Shown here: in pieces, positions 1,761-6,023 of the stretch
Layout: every line of letters starts with the position of its first letter
Position numbering within the stretch: position 1 is the stretch's first letter
DNA from: Clostridium sp. UBA6758
Lineage (GTDB): Bacteria; Bacillota; Clostridia; Clostridiales; Clostridiaceae
Assembly: GCA_002453475.1 (NCBI GenBank)
Contig: DKGY01000101.1
Location: forward strand, 19,708-26,576
Direction: 5' to 3'
DNA: 6,869 nt
Notes under the pieces: generated by a model
What the model was told of the DNA's origin: nothing
Seen by the model: the letters and a program-made list of their open reading frames with translations, nothing else
The model's database searches: none
Made by a program: the position numbers and the translations under genes

Positions 1761-1807
1761 TTAAATATGCACTAGATATAAATTTCATAGTGAAAAGAGG
1801 GGTATCA

Positions 1808-3190
1808 TTGAATTTAAAAATGAAAAAAGAGACTATTATTATACTAACCTTTGTGATAGGATTTATATTTTTATTAGGGGGAATGTATATATCATTGCCA
1901 GCTAATGAGAAAAGTTATATAAGAAAAAATTCTACTACTATAGACTTCACTAATTATGAGGATTATTCAGCATTAGAAATTTTTAATGATAGTATAAAAG
2001 ATAAAAAGATAATTATGACTAATGAAGAAAGAGGTATAAATGAAAATGCACAAATTCAATATAAGTTTATAACTTATTTAATGGATGAATGGAAGCTAAA
2101 ATATTTTTTAATTGATGCAGGATATTCAGAAGCTGCTATTATAAATGAATACTTGCAGACTGGAGATGAAAATTTATTAGAATCCTATAATAATAGTTCT
2201 ATGGGATATGGTTTTATTGGAGATTCAACGGTGTACATGCTTAAAAGATTATATTTAAAAAATAGTCAGCTTCCCGATAATAAAAAATTGAATATTATGG
2301 GAATAGGAATAAATGAGTCCTTTCAATCTGTTGACTTATATTTCAAAAGGATAATTAGTAGAAATTCAGATTTAACAGATAAACAAATAGAAAATATAAA
2401 TAAGTTTTTAGAAAACTTAAAAAGTAAAGAGATTCTAACCAATATAAGCAATGAAAAGGAGCTAGATGAGAGAAATAAAATAATTATAGGATATGTAGAA
2501 AACTTCTATAGTGAAATTAATACCAATGAAGATGCATATAAAGAAGCATTGGGTGAGGACTTTAATAATATAAAAATTGTTATAAATAATATAAAAAATA
2601 CGCAAGAAATTATGAAAACATATTATCAAGATGATTCAAATATGAAAAATGGGAATCAAAAATATTCTCAATATTTATATGATAATTTAAATAATTTCTA
2701 TAAAAGTATGAATATGAAAAGATGCTATATACATGTACACCAGATATATAACTATCAGCATGAAATTTTAGATGTAGATTTTTTAGGGTCAAAAATTGCA
2801 AAGGATAAGAAATTTAAGGATAAAGTTTTAGGAATCAATGTAATATACCAAAAAGGTAAACTTGATTTTAATAATACACAAATACAAATAAATGTAGCAA
2901 GAGAAGATTTCAATACTCTTATTCGGGAGTCTGAGTTAGATAAAGAGGATATGGTAATAAATTTAGATAATTCACGAAGCCCATATAGAAGAAAGTTTAC
3001 TCCTATATACTTTCCTTTTCCAGATGATGTCCTATATCCACAGGAAAATGTAAATGGAGAAGAAATCGGAGGAATTATAGGAAAAAACCAAGGAGTAACT
3101 ATTGATTATTTTCAAGGAGTAATTATTATAAAGAATCCTTCTATAGACGAATCTTATTTTAATAGAATATATGAGAATAGTAATCCGTAA
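1808..3190 (+). CDS. Membrane-anchored EreA-like (erythromycin esterase-like) protein, degenerate active site
   Basis: The function is not known. From the TTG at 1808 the protein has 460 residues. A short basic N-terminus precedes one hydrophobic segment (about 9-30), so it is probably an N-terminally anchored protein with its body outside the membrane. The body resembles the erythromycin esterase-like family. IIMTNEERG (68-76) followed by an amphipathic helix and YFLIDAGYSEA matches the family's GExxHG-helix-E-x-GYSDA region. LNIMGIGINE matches its G-I-D segment, and CYIHVHQIYNYQHE (H309, H311, H318) matches its later histidine region. The early catalytic histidine appears to be R75 and the G-I-D aspartate appears to be a glycine, so hydrolase activity is doubtful. 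I prefer the TTG start because GAGGGG (1797-1802) sits 5 bases before it. The in-frame GTG at 1790 has no SD site, and the ATG at 1820 is too far from one. The fold call rests on remembered family patterns only. Confidence 0.55.
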   Translation: MNLKMKKETIIILTFVIGFIFLLGGMYISLPANEKSYIRKNSTTIDFTNYEDYSALEIFNDSIKDKKIIMTNEERGINENAQIQYKFITYLMDEWKLKYFLIDAGYSEAAIINEYLQTGDENLLESYNNSSMGYGFIGDSTVYMLKRLYLKNSQLPDNKKLNIMGIGINESFQSVDLYFKRIISRNSDLTDKQIENINKFLENLKSKEILTNISNEKELDERNKIIIGYVENFYSEINTNEDAYKEALGEDFNNIKIVINNIKNTQEIMKTYYQDDSNMKNGNQKYSQYLYDNLNNFYKSMNMKRCYIHVHQIYNYQHEILDVDFLGSKIAKDKKFKDKVLGINVIYQKGKLDFNNTQIQINVAREDFNTLIRESELDKEDMVINLDNSRSPYRRKFTPIYFPFPDDVLYPQENVNGEEIGGIIGKNQGVTIDYFQGVIIIKNPSIDESYFNRIYENSNP

Positions 3191-3227: not shown

Positions 3228-3278
3228 TTGAATTTATTGTAGCAAAGTATTATTCTAAAAGTGGGATAATAAATTCAA
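3228..3278. repeat. 11-bp perfect inverted repeat downstream of the EreA-like gene
   Basis: TTGAATTTATT (3228-3238) is the exact reverse complement of AATAAATTCAA (3268-3278). The stem can extend inward by two more pairs (3239·3267 as G·U, and 3240-3266). The loop is then 25 bases. A short run ATTTT follows, so this may be a weak terminator of the upstream gene. The left arm also supplies TTGAAT (3228-3233), which with TATTCT (3251-3256) at 17-base spacing could be a promoter. It could alternatively be an operator. Confidence 0.35.
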
Positions 3279-3299: not shown

Positions 3300-3306
3300 T
3301 AAAGGT

Positions 3307-3335
3307 TTAAAATAATCTAACAGAAAAGATATAAT
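3307..3335 (+). promoter_or_regulatory. Predicted promoter of the hydE-hydF operon
   Basis: A perfect -10 TATAAT (3330-3335) is preceded at 17 bases by TTAAAA (3307-3312), a 4-of-6 match to the -35 consensus. Transcription would start near 3342, just before the foldable leader that begins at 3345. This leaves a 5' leader of about 178 bases. A weaker alternative promoter is TTGAAT/TATTCT at 3228-3256. Confidence 0.5.
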
Positions 3336-3342
3336 AATCTAA
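3311..3342. repeat. 22-base-period direct repeat overlapping the hydE promoter
   Basis: AATAATCTAA occurs at 3311-3320 and again at 3333-3342, with a repeat period of 22 bases, about two helical turns. The first copy overlaps the end of the -35 box and the second overlaps the -10 box and the start site. Same-face spacing over a promoter is typical of paired binding of a regulator, but the motif is AT-rich and could be chance. Confidence 0.35.
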
Positions 3343-3344
3343 TC

Positions 3345-3437
3345 TGAAAGAAAACTATAAAACCAGAACCATAGGTATTGGCATATATTATGGGTCTAGC
3401 TTTCTTTCAATATTAAGATGGCTAGACTTTTATTTTA
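3345..3437 (+). promoter_or_regulatory. Candidate transcription attenuator / riboswitch-like leader of hydE-hydF
   Basis: Two mutually exclusive folds are visible. Fold A has an outer stem TGAAAGAAA (3345-3353) with TTTCTTTCA (3401-3409), 9 perfect pairs, enclosing AGAACCATA (3365-3373) with TATGGGTCT (3389-3397), 8 of 9 pairs, and a 15-base loop. Fold B is the terminator at 3392-3436. Its 5' arm overlaps both the inner stem and the 3' strand of the outer stem, so A would act as antiterminator. The folded element begins about 3 bases after the predicted transcription start, so any sensor must be small (about 65 bases) or bind from outside. I see no T-box sequence, S-box, preQ1, glycine or other familiar riboswitch signature. 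The signal that would choose between folds is unknown. Confidence 0.5.
3392..3436 (+). terminator. Intrinsic terminator inside the hydE leader
   Basis: GTCTAGC (3394-3400) pairs perfectly with GCTAGAC (3421-3427), and two G·U pairs extend it outward to 3392 and 3429. Further inner pairs (3401·3420 as G·U, then 3403-3406 with 3415-3418) close the loop to 8 bases, giving 14 pairs in 15 positions. The run TTTTATTTT (3428-3436) follows at once. It lies about 200 bases after the stop of the previous gene and 84 bases before hydE, so it is better read as an attenuator of hydE than as the end of the upstream gene. Confidence 0.68.
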
Positions 3438-3519: not shown

Positions 3520-4569
3520 ATGATAAGAGATTTAATAGATAAGTTGGCGTTAACTAATGATTTATCTTCAGAGGAGTTATTGTATATATTAGATAATTTG
3601 GATGAAGAAAGTAAAAAATATTTAATAGAAAAAGCTCATGAAACTAGGATGAAGGTATATGGAGATAAAGTATATATACGAGGTCTCATTGAATTCACTA
3701 ATTACTGTAGCATGAATTGTGTTTATTGTGGAATTAGAGCAGAAAATAAAAATGCTGATAGATATAGACTTACTCTAGAAGAAATTTTAGAATGTACAGA
3801 TTTAGGAAATGAACTTGGATATAAAACCTTTGTATTGCAAGGTGGAGAGGATCCATATTATACAGATGAAAAATTAGTAGAAATAATTAAAGCTATAAAA
3901 AAGAGACACCCTAAAAGTGCTATAACAATTTCTCTAGGAGAGAGAAGTTATGAATCCTATAAGAAGCTCTATGATGCAGGTGCAGATAGATATTTATTAA
4001 GGCACGAAACCGCTACGAAAGAGCTATATGATAGATTTCACCCAGGAGCTACCTTTGAAAATAGAAGACAGTGTCTATATAATTTAAAGGAAATAGGATA
4101 TCAAATAGGAGCAGGATTTATGGTAGGATTACCGGGACAAGAAAACAAGGATTTAGTCAATGACTTAAGATTCATAAAAGAGTTAAATCCTCATATGTGT
4201 GGGCTAGGACCATTTATACCTCATAAAGACACAGTATTAAATGATTATAAAGCAGGTACACTAGAAAAAACTATAACTATGTTAGCTTTAGTTAGACTTT
4301 TAGTACCTAATATTTTATTACCAGCTACCACAGCTTTAGGTAGTATTAATCCTTTAGGAAGAGAGCTTGGAATTAAAGCAGGGGCAAATGTTGTTATGCC
4401 TAATCTTTCACCAAGACGCGTAAGAGAAAAATATTCTCTCTATGATGGAAAGATATGTACTGGAGACGAGGCAGCAGAATGTAGACATTGCATAGAGAAT
4501 AGAATAAGAAATGCAGGATTCCAGCTAGATATTACTAGAGGAGATAATATAGATTGGACACGTAAGTAA
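3520..4569 (+). CDS. hydE: [FeFe]-hydrogenase H-cluster maturase HydE (radical SAM)
   Basis: HydE is a cytoplasmic radical-SAM enzyme that processes the Fe(CO)2(CN)-cysteine product of HydG on the way to the diiron subcluster of [FeFe]-hydrogenase. The 349-residue protein is full length. The radical-SAM cluster motif CxxxCxxC is at C63, C67 and C70 (NYCSMNCVYCGI), and the SAM-binding LQGGED is at 106-111. GFMVGLPGQ (199-207) is a conserved barrel strand. The C-terminal cysteines C313, C321 and C324 match the second [2Fe-2S] site reported in Thermotoga maritima HydE, which many HydE proteins lack. The related radical-SAM enzymes ThiH, BioB and PylB are less likely because hydF follows directly. 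The ATG has AAAGGGG 6 bases upstream. The gene sits behind an attenuator-like leader and is the first gene of a two-gene operon. Confidence 0.95.
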   Translation: MIRDLIDKLALTNDLSSEELLYILDNLDEESKKYLIEKAHETRMKVYGDKVYIRGLIEFTNYCSMNCVYCGIRAENKNADRYRLTLEEILECTDLGNELGYKTFVLQGGEDPYYTDEKLVEIIKAIKKRHPKSAITISLGERSYESYKKLYDAGADRYLLRHETATKELYDRFHPGATFENRRQCLYNLKEIGYQIGAGFMVGLPGQENKDLVNDLRFIKELNPHMCGLGPFIPHKDTVLNDYKAGTLEKTITMLALVRLLVPNILLPATTALGSINPLGRELGIKAGANVVMPNLSPRRVREKYSLYDGKICTGDEAAECRHCIENRIRNAGFQLDITRGDNIDWTRK

Positions 4570-4590: not shown

Positions 4591-5781
4591 ATGAATACTA
4601 CACCTAACTCTAATAGAACTCATATAGCCATTTATGGTAAGACTAATGTAGGGAAATCATCTTTATTAAATAAAATTCTTGGGCAAGAAGTATCTATAGT
4701 CTCAGAGGTAAGGGGAACTACTACAGATCCAGTATCAAAGGCAATGGAATTAATTCCTATAGGACCGGTTTTGTTTATTGATACGGCAGGGCTTTGGGAT
4801 GATACTGAACTTGGAGCTTTAAGAGGTGAGAGAACTCTTGAAATAATGAAAAGAACAGATTTAGCTCTATATGTTATGGATTCAGATGATATAGATATGA
4901 AAGCTTATGAAGAAGTGAAACTAAACTTTAAAAAATATAATGTACCTAATATTCTTGTCATTAGTAAGATAGACACTTTGAGTGAAAATGAAATAATAGA
5001 TTTAAAAAATAAATTCTCGGAATGGGTATTTGTATCTTCTATAACTGGTGAAGGAATTGAAACTTTAAAGGGAAAAATTATAGCTATGGTACAAGAGAAT
5101 CAAGAAGAGCTTCCAATAATAGGAGATTTACTGCCTTATAATAGTAAGGTTGTTCTTGTGGTACCAATAGATTCAGAAGCACCCAAAGGAAGATTAATAT
5201 TACCTCAGGTTCAATGCATAAGAGATTGTTTAGATTATGGAATAAAAAGTTATATAGTAAGAGATACAGAACTTGAGTCTGCTCTAGGGGATATTAAAGA
5301 TATAGATTTAGTAATAACAGATTCTCAAGCTTTTAAAAAGGTAGATAAAATAGTTCCACCCCATATTAAGTTAACTAGTTTTTCTATGCTATTTGCAAGA
5401 CATAAAGGAGATTTATCTGTATTTGTAGAGGGAGCTAATAAAATCAAAGAGCTTAACAAAAATTCACGAATACTTATATCAGAAAGCTGCTCTCATAATG
5501 TTTCACATGAGGATATAGGAAGAGCTAAGATTCCAAAACTTTTAAATAAACATTTAGGATATGAACTCACCTATGAATATAGAGTTGGACATGATTTTCC
5601 AGAGGATATAGAAAAATATGATTTAATAATTCATTGTGGAGCATGTATGATAAATAGAAAAACTGTTATTAACAGAATAGATCAGTGTAAAGATAAGGGA
5701 GTCGCTATAACTAACTATGGAGTCATACTTGCATATTTAACAGGGATTTTAGATAGAACTTTATCTATTTATAAATTGTAA
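4591..5781 (+). CDS. hydF: [FeFe]-hydrogenase H-cluster maturation GTPase HydF
   Basis: HydF is the GTPase scaffold that receives the diiron precursor made with HydE and HydG and delivers it to the hydrogenase. Counted from the ATG at 4591 the protein has 396 residues. The GTPase motifs are in order: P-loop GKTNVGKS (16-23), DTAG (64-67), SKID (125-128, in place of NKxD) and VSSIT (148-152). A middle dimerisation region follows. The C-terminal cluster-binding domain carries ESCSHN (C300, H302) and HCGAC (H348, C349, C352), the three cysteines that hold the [4Fe-4S] cluster. The frame is open back to a TTG at 4570, but AAGGAG (4578-4583) is 7 bases before the ATG and would fall inside the longer form, so ATG is the start. 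The gene begins 21 bases after the hydE stop, which implies one transcript. Only 23 bases separate its stop from the next promoter, and no clear terminator is present. Confidence 0.96.
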
Positions 5782-5804: not shown

Positions 5805-5833
5805 TTGACAATACAGGCAGTAAGGTTTAAAAT
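5805..5833 (+). promoter_or_regulatory. Predicted sigma-A promoter of the SulP transporter gene
   Basis: A perfect -35 TTGACA (5805-5810) is followed at 17 bases by TAAAAT (5828-5833), one base from consensus. Transcription would start near 5840 and leave a leader of about 184 bases before the ATG at 6024. Confidence 0.7.
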
Positions 5834-5836
5834 GTG

Positions 5837-5984
5837 TATGGGTGCAAAAATATGTTTTGCACTCATAAATAATAGCATAAGCATTAGGCTTCAGAGGATA
5901 GCAATATTCCACTGAGGCTATGTTCGTTGCCCAAATATTCTACTTTAGTACTTAGTAGTGGAAATAAGTATTAAAATAGAATAT
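5837..5984 (+). promoter_or_regulatory. Structured 5' leader of the SulP gene: three tandem hairpins
   Basis: Hairpin 1 pairs 5837-5849 with 5855-5867 (13 pairs, one G·U, 5-base loop) and lies at the predicted transcript start. Hairpin 2 spans 5880-5924: AGCAT with ATGTT, a TA bulge, GGCTTCAG (5887-5894) with CTGAGGCT (5912-5919), then GGA-TA against TA-TCC closing a GCAA tetraloop (5901-5904). Hairpin 3 pairs 5935-5954 with 5965-5984, 19 of 20 positions with one G·U and one mismatch, around a 10-base loop. None is followed by a T-tract, so these do not look like terminators, although hairpin 1 or readthrough might stand in for the missing hydF terminator. The arrangement suggests a cis-acting RNA element. 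I cannot match it to a known riboswitch family. Confidence 0.48.
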
Positions 5985-6023
5985 CGTTGAGTGACTAAAG
6001 CTAAAGTAAAGGATGGAGAAAAG

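Follow-up and report, generated by a model that had tools for sequence, protein, structure and literature searches.

A conserved hairpin with the layout of a candidate OFF switch in the leader of hydE-hydF and related operons of Clostridia

The window, by which we mean the whole 6,869-nucleotide stretch of Clostridium sp. UBA6758 DNA that was analyzed, carries the [FeFe]-hydrogenase maturation genes hydE and hydF behind a leader whose features are listed in Table 1. The top HydE relatives found for the window come from Clostridium sp. UBA1056 (96%) and C. sulfidigenes (94%), and in two close relatives of the window organism TM1266-hydG is located on a separate contig. Immediately 5' of the leader lies an open reading frame of 466 amino acids (1790-3190) with no NCBIfam match, and an M42-type peptidase gene is directly followed by a strong terminator-like site (1618-1656), whose stem has 16 bp. 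The gene 3' of hydF, an open reading frame from about 6024, appears transporter-like by eye.

Table 1. Features of the hydE-hydF leader and the genes behind it (positions in the window)
Feature	Position	Strand	Details
Predicted promoter	3228..3256	+	TTGAAT (3228-3233), 17-nt spacer, TATTCT (3251-3256)
Conserved core element	3312..3355	+	Covariance models R1-R3; R1 55.0 bits, E 2e-9 (the window itself is an R1 training sequence)
Sensor hairpin	3316..3351	+	MFE -7.2 kcal/mol, z -3.1, 3/200 shuffles as good; covariation in relatives
TATAAT, -10 box of the original prediction	3330..3335	+	Mostly within the sensor hairpin loop
Antiterminator 5' arm (UGAAAGAAA)	3345..3353	+	9/9 pairs with 3401-3409; overlaps 3' strand of sensor hairpin
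Intrinsic terminator	3393..3436	+	Stem 3393-3401/3420-3428 and 3403-3406/3415-3418; U-rich tail 3429-3436
Antiterminator 3' arm (UUUCUUUCA)	3401..3409	+	Overlaps terminator stem and loop
hydE, controlled gene	3520..4569	+	TIGR03956 530 bits, cut-off 254.6
hydF, second gene of presumed operon	4591..5781	+	TIGR03918 532 bits, cut-off 325.6

The most constant block of related hydE leaders corresponds to the core element of Table 1 and lies 5' of the attenuator that was originally predicted at 3345-3437. That attenuator is real, but it represents only the lower half of the system, the conserved block being largely outside its coordinates. Likewise, the inner stem assigned to it (about 3365-3396) is common only to the closest relatives and was rejected as a conserved feature because its length and sequence differ elsewhere; the segment between core and terminator measures from 14 to 268 nt in the family leaders, and its sequence is also variable. 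The sensor hairpin within the core consists of three helices, 3316-3318/3349-3351 (3 bp), 3321-3324/3343-3346 (4 bp), and 3327-3330/3337-3340 (4 bp), separated by AA/AA internal loops at 3319-3320/3347-3348 and 3325-3326/3341-3342. Its consensus, 5'-CU-RA-[stem]-RA-RG-loop-CY-RA-[stem]-RA-AG-3', has a near two-fold symmetry, with one strand reading CURA-stem-RA-RG and the other CYRA-stem-RA-AG. Over 67 alignment rows (68 minus one likely false row), columns C6, U7, C32, A45, and G46 are invariant and A9, A15, G17, A35, and A43 almost so, and the stem between the loops is variable. Some 40-50 nt 5' of the core, part of the Clostridium leaders (L024, L026, L028, and L034) carry AAGAGAG followed, after 1-3 bases, by ATCTTTT.

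Covariance model R1 was built from 17 sequences (alignment A2), and R2 and R3 were derived from subsequent matches. Alignments A3 (39 matches, 38 distinct) and A7 (68 matches, 65 distinct) were fitted to the covariance model and are biased towards it, whereas A2 is unfitted; A7 moreover holds one genome twice (L155 and L178) and a likely false row (L034, 1399-1434, plus strand), which was counted in A7 and used for R3. Standard pairs occupy 99.1% of the pair cells in A3 and 96.9% in A7, and cells changed on both sides number 36 in A3 and 86 in A7, versus 7.4 and 23.5 in shuffled alignments, with a covariation score in A7 of 0.409 versus 0.183. Although the fitted alignments lean to the model, controls in which the structure was slid along A7 (32 double-change cells at most) and the unfitted A2 (6 versus 1.5 shuffled) agree in direction. 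The signal is weaker by two measures that are less affected by kinship: in A7, the six pairs changed on both sides were reached by 48 of 500 shuffles and the 15 pair types by 1 of 500. For the same two measures, the numbers of shuffles were 11 and 125 of 500 in A3 and 21 and 500 of 500 in A2. The outermost pair of the hairpin is broken in 12 of the 65 rows of A7, and the middle stem occurs as CAGA/UCUG, UAGA/UCUA, CGGG/CCCG, CAGG/CCUG, and CAAA/UUUG. Judged from these alignments of related leaders, the stems of the sensor hairpin covary, and we conclude that the conserved hairpin is an RNA structure.

Of the 194 family genomes searched, 15 contain a plain DNA pattern of the element and none contains the reversed pattern. 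Across the class, R1 matched 28 of 391 genomes at E 0.1; position and gene context led us to judge 22 of them real (in one, G522, the element is close to the contig end) and six false (L061, L062, L064, L065, L068, and L069, inside coding frames or without hyd context), and a second match in the otherwise accepted G010 (L071) was discarded on the same grounds. In the phylum, R2 matched 17 of 388 genomes at E 0.01, with 15 judged real, two of which were already known, and two called false (L163 and L165; coding frame or no hyd context). Half of the 20 related HydE loci have the element by R1, and the other 10, including L016 with no upstream sequence, do not. A minus-strand match in L007 is likely false.

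The downstream genes, mostly named by eye from translations except where family models are cited, revolve around hydrogenase maturation: directly 3' of the element we find TM1266 with hydE or hydF behind it, hydE, hydF alone (L029), or hydG. The element also precedes NitT/TauT-type ABC transporter genes (SsuA/NMT1 type; L032 and L059) and, in L102 and L103, TM1266 with hydrogenase-like genes and an ECF-type transporter component (Pfam score barely above the cut-off) behind it. In L101 (904-8331, minus strand), it stands 5' of an operon for a NifH-like protein and two nitrogenase component 1-like (NifDK/E-like) proteins, which also encodes an iron- or heme-type ABC transporter with its binding protein and a HydE homologue. 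The regulon defined by the element hence spans hydE, hydF, hydG, TM1266, two kinds of transporters, and a nitrogenase-like operon. Paired elements in series occur in G921 (L153) and G234 (L299): in the former, one at 1501-1540 is before TM1266 and one at 1957-1997 before hydG, and in the latter, one at 149-196 is before a terminator and one at 344-381 near the hydG start. In L144, a cobalamin riboswitch (1553-1732, 122 bits) lies about 1.1 kb 3' of the element.

The intrinsic terminator predicted at 3392-3436 is borne out by the fold of 3393-3428, followed by UUUAUUUU, at -17.1 kcal/mol (z -5.4, with none of 200 shuffles as good), and all but one of 200 shuffles of region 3342-3445 fold less well than the region itself. 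This terminator is absent from the sites listed by a simple terminator scan, probably because of the mismatch in its stem. The 9-bp outer stem also stands, with all nine pairs formed between the two antiterminator arms. As the 5' arm of the terminator uses bases of this first stem, the antiterminator and terminator folds are mutually exclusive, in agreement with the two exclusive folds originally proposed. In the family, our script found terminators 3' of 35 of the 47 elements and missed one that is visible by eye (L070); 10 of the 12 elements with no terminator found are close 5' of hydG, and the hairpins of those hydG leaders, as judged by eye, adjoin or cover the ribosome-binding site. In 31 leaders (those bearing terminators minus four near-identical ones), pairing between the 3' core strand and the 5' arm of the leader's own terminator averages -13.1 kcal/mol, versus -8.8 kcal/mol for crossed leaders, and the sum for own terminators was reached by none of 5000 permutations, a result to which differences in base composition between clades may add. 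When each leader's own arm was shuffled, the pairing fell in the best 5% for 22 of the 31 leaders, the window among them (4/300), and not for the other nine. The antiterminator tracks its own terminator in these leaders, which strengthens the original proposal that hydE-hydF are preceded by a riboswitch or a protein-controlled attenuator. The leader combines a terminator with an alternative helix that has bases in common with it, as expected of an attenuator, and a conserved, covarying sensor 5' of functionally related genes, as expected of a riboswitch.

Calculated energies suggest how such a switch might operate. For RNAs ending at 3409-3420, the enforced antiterminator is favored over the enforced hairpin by 1.2-2.3 kcal/mol, and at 3409 the unconstrained optimum is another 1.2 kcal/mol better than the enforced antiterminator; from 3425 onward, the hairpin plus terminator beats the antiterminator by at least 6 kcal/mol. 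On these figures, a modest stabilization of the hairpin could decide the outcome. Without effector, the antiterminator would win in the short time before completion of the terminator. A sensor hairpin stabilized by its effector would instead persist and block the antiterminator, so that the terminator would form, transcription would end near 3436, and hydE-hydF would be off. In the hydG leaders that lack a terminator, binding of the effector at the hairpin would block translation via the Shine-Dalgarno sequence. Since the same hairpin would either cause termination or mask the ribosome site, both arrangements would yield the OFF state. Based on these sequence comparisons and calculations, we consider that the hairpin probably acts as an OFF switch in front of hydE-hydF, whatever its effector.

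The position of the transcript start bears on this proposal. The perfect TATAAT that was originally taken as the -10 box is indeed present, but the start deduced from it does not hold: the site is kept in neither of the two closest relatives, one having TATAGT (5/6) and the other nothing similar. Since a start at about 3342 would remove most of the conserved RNA, it is very likely wrong, and we reject the promoter at 3306-3335, whose TATAAT falls mostly in the hairpin loop. The promoter predicted at 3228-3256 seems likelier from sequence conservation, with 8 of 12 consensus matches, below the threshold of the promoter scan. Both of its hexamers are conserved in the two closest relatives, and TTGACA-N17-TATGAT occupies the matching place in the leaders L003 and L020. 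Transcription would then start near 3263, and the transcript would include the entire hairpin.

Judging by its neighbors, the element is connected with H-cluster assembly at large, and the TM1266-family protein emerges as a candidate effector. For the signals suggested with the original prediction (redox state, iron, or SAM), the analysis gives neither support nor contradiction. The TM1266 gene was detected in 34 of 35 and in 12 of 13 element-bearing genomes (two samples), compared with 240 of the 391 class genomes (235 above the cut-off) and, among 20 genomes with no element, nine (one of these below the cut-off). The element-bearing genomes with no TM1266 detected are G381, in which the neighbor of TM1266 in two relatives is absent as well, and G825 and G208, where the stretches fetched around the elements contain no TM1266. 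Conversely, most TM1266-positive genomes of the class have no R1 match. Since TM1266 and the element both track [FeFe]-hydrogenase genes, the association is partly explained by this common link; among HydG-positive genomes, the R1 association is weak and falls short of significance, with matches in 17 of 189 with TM1266 versus 1 of 49 without (p 0.13, kinship ignored). With R2, nothing convincing was obtained in 40 of these 49 HydG-positive, TM1266-negative genomes, five matches (L061 and L137-L140) being called false as in coding frames or without hyd context. R2 gave eight well-placed elements in 7 of 40 TM1266-positive genomes, which had been hand-picked among those with no R1 match, in most cases because of a low TM1266 score (33 of the 40 have HydG).

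The leaders of hydG were compared separately, for which we used 34 of the 49 TM1266-negative and 34 of the 189 TM1266-positive genomes, among the matches listed. R3 at E up to 1 found the element before hydG in 11 TM1266-positive genomes, three of them in the R3 training set, versus one TM1266-negative genome (p 0.003, kinship ignored), each match being on the coding strand. G381, whose hydG element was already known, had initially been left out, and its addition brings the TM1266-negative genomes to 2 of 35 (p 0.006, kinship ignored). With the filters off, the counts are 15/34 versus 3/34, two of the three TM1266-negative matches scoring 11 bits and one of these being on the wrong strand. A stricter descriptor gave 6/34 versus 1/34 (p 0.11) or, with G381, two TM1266-negative genomes (p 0.15), kinship again being ignored.

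Elements also occur in front of TM1266 itself. The same descriptor, which has fixed loop motifs and requires pairing, was devised after some of the regions 5' of TM1266 had been seen; of 66 such regions, it hit 14 exactly and 20 when one mismatch was allowed, with no hit on the reverse strand and a mean of 0 in 100 shuffles (0.02 with one mismatch). In 40 of these regions taken in listed order (G502, where the contig begins, was skipped), the descriptor found 6 exact hits and 10 with one mismatch. R3 found 8 in the same 40, all in the gene direction and none among the 19 minus-strand loci, and, with the filters off, 12, including two of the 19 minus-strand loci, plus one extra match on the wrong strand. 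A second type of TM1266 gene, which the relatives of the window carry, sometimes has a divergent element 5', with middle stems that read CAC/GUG, UUGC/GCAA, and CCGC/GCGG.

TM1266 belongs to a family (TIGR03959, PF21699) that NCBI names putative regulator of iron-only hydrogenase system, and its structure has been solved (2nzc). In the searched passages of PMC8457756 and PMC7039931, no target or mechanism of TM1266 was seen. Our working hypothesis is that a dimer of the TM1266-family protein would read the two near-symmetric loops and, in the presence of its signal, repress the H-cluster assembly genes, often together with its own gene. This identification of the effector is the least certain step of our proposal, one that we put at slightly under an even chance. 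We suggest, with somewhat more reserve, that a new and widespread class of regulatory RNA, the near-symmetric twin-loop hairpin, controls H-cluster assembly in Clostridia and is read by TM1266; ended transcription or blocked ribosomes would then shut off hydE, hydF, hydG, and the TM1266 gene.

It is quite conceivable, if not our preference, that the hairpin is instead the aptamer of a riboswitch for a small molecule or a metal, with the loops as the binding site and TM1266 merely as a regulated gene, the switch itself being identical. The NitT/TauT-type transporter genes that follow the element with no TM1266 adjacent, the three element-bearing genomes with no TM1266 detected, and the two cases of serial copies favor such a riboswitch, and the nitrogenase-like operon of L101, with its iron- or heme-type transporter and HydE homologue, would fit its regulon. 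However, a hairpin of some 36 nt whose stems vary freely and whose loops are two of the 2x2 type would be simple for an aptamer, the near two-fold symmetry suits a protein dimer, and TM1266 almost always accompanies the element.

Reading by another protein in autogenous control, be it HydF, HydE, or some general RNA-binding protein, seems improbable to us. With TM1266, hydE, hydF, and hydG are the commonest neighbors of the element (mostly named by eye), as such control would have it, but the element is also found before genes of none of these (L032 and L059), and Pfam and NCBIfam reveal no dedicated RNA-binding domain in HydE and HydF of the window.

We regard as very unlikely that the conserved block is a DNA operator, in which a transcription factor would recognize near-repeats placed around a promoter at 3306-3335. 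The block does contain two near-copies of CURA...RAAAG, as well as TATAAT in the window and TATAGT in one relative, and in C. thermocellum Rex sites were predicted at hydG and at a TM1266-type gene, according to PMC8457756, which we count in favor of an operator. Nevertheless, the paired bases covary, the other close relative has no such -10 box, the loop and the middle stem differ in length between members, the 3' strand is matched to the terminator of the respective leader, and the element of hydG leaders ends close before the start codon. Finally, chance pairing in a spacer with a plain terminator between operons, a caveat raised with the original prediction because the outer stem, like the leader, is A/T-rich, is hardly credible, being contradicted by the genome pattern counts, the matching of antiterminators, the covariation, and the descriptor tests alike.

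Returning to the OFF switch with TM1266 as its candidate reader, the sensor and the regulon appear to be new, and the mechanism would resemble those of known attenuators, that of PyrR in particular. In the attenuators of pyr operons, binding of PyrR to an upstream hairpin blocks the antiterminator so that the terminator forms, and the PyrR regulator is often encoded by the first gene of its own operon. The order of exclusive folds and the often leading position of the candidate regulator in its operon are alike in our system, but the hairpin, the genes, and the candidate protein differ, and binding of TM1266 is only proposed. The RAT hairpins of the BglG/LicT/SacY antiterminators are also short and overlap the switch, and their two internal loops suit binding by a protein dimer. 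In those systems, protein binding prevents termination (ON), whereas the hairpin described here would favor it, and the sequences are unrelated. Riboswitches that terminate transcription or block the ribosome-binding site likewise use one sensor for both outputs and may occur in serial copies, yet our sensor is smaller and simpler than most aptamers and has no Rfam match at its core. The TM1266 family is already named as a putative hydrogenase regulator, and the element ties it to RNA, an RNA target being our proposal.

We rejected an identity with Rfam families, as Rfam 15 at permissive thresholds has no family overlapping the cores of the 14 members scanned (the window, five loci, and eight loci), in line with the original view that no such attenuator had been described. 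The Moco/Wco riboswitch, in particular, has no Rfam match at the element in these 14 members; it was considered since Wco RNAs are reported before hydrogenase genes (PMC9481103). Term searches of the motif-discovery papers PMC11109978, PMC8632094, PMC2864571, and PMC6429828 gave no matches, and the literature searched, which does not include a 224-motif survey, has no description of it. As far as these searches show, RNA-level control of the H-cluster assembly pathway has not been described. The element provides a testable switch and a specific proposal for the role of TM1266. Until now this protein has carried no annotation beyond that of a putative hydrogenase regulator, and it would, if our proposal is true, be an RNA-binding protein. 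The switch, if true, would also offer a handle on clostridial hydrogen output and a new RNA-protein or RNA-ligand pair.

Outside the leader, the region separating hydF from the following gene (5830-6015) has no Rfam match and is far more stable than its shuffled versions (-57 kcal/mol, z -5.9, 0/200 as good); it may represent either an inverted-repeat element or a second structured leader.
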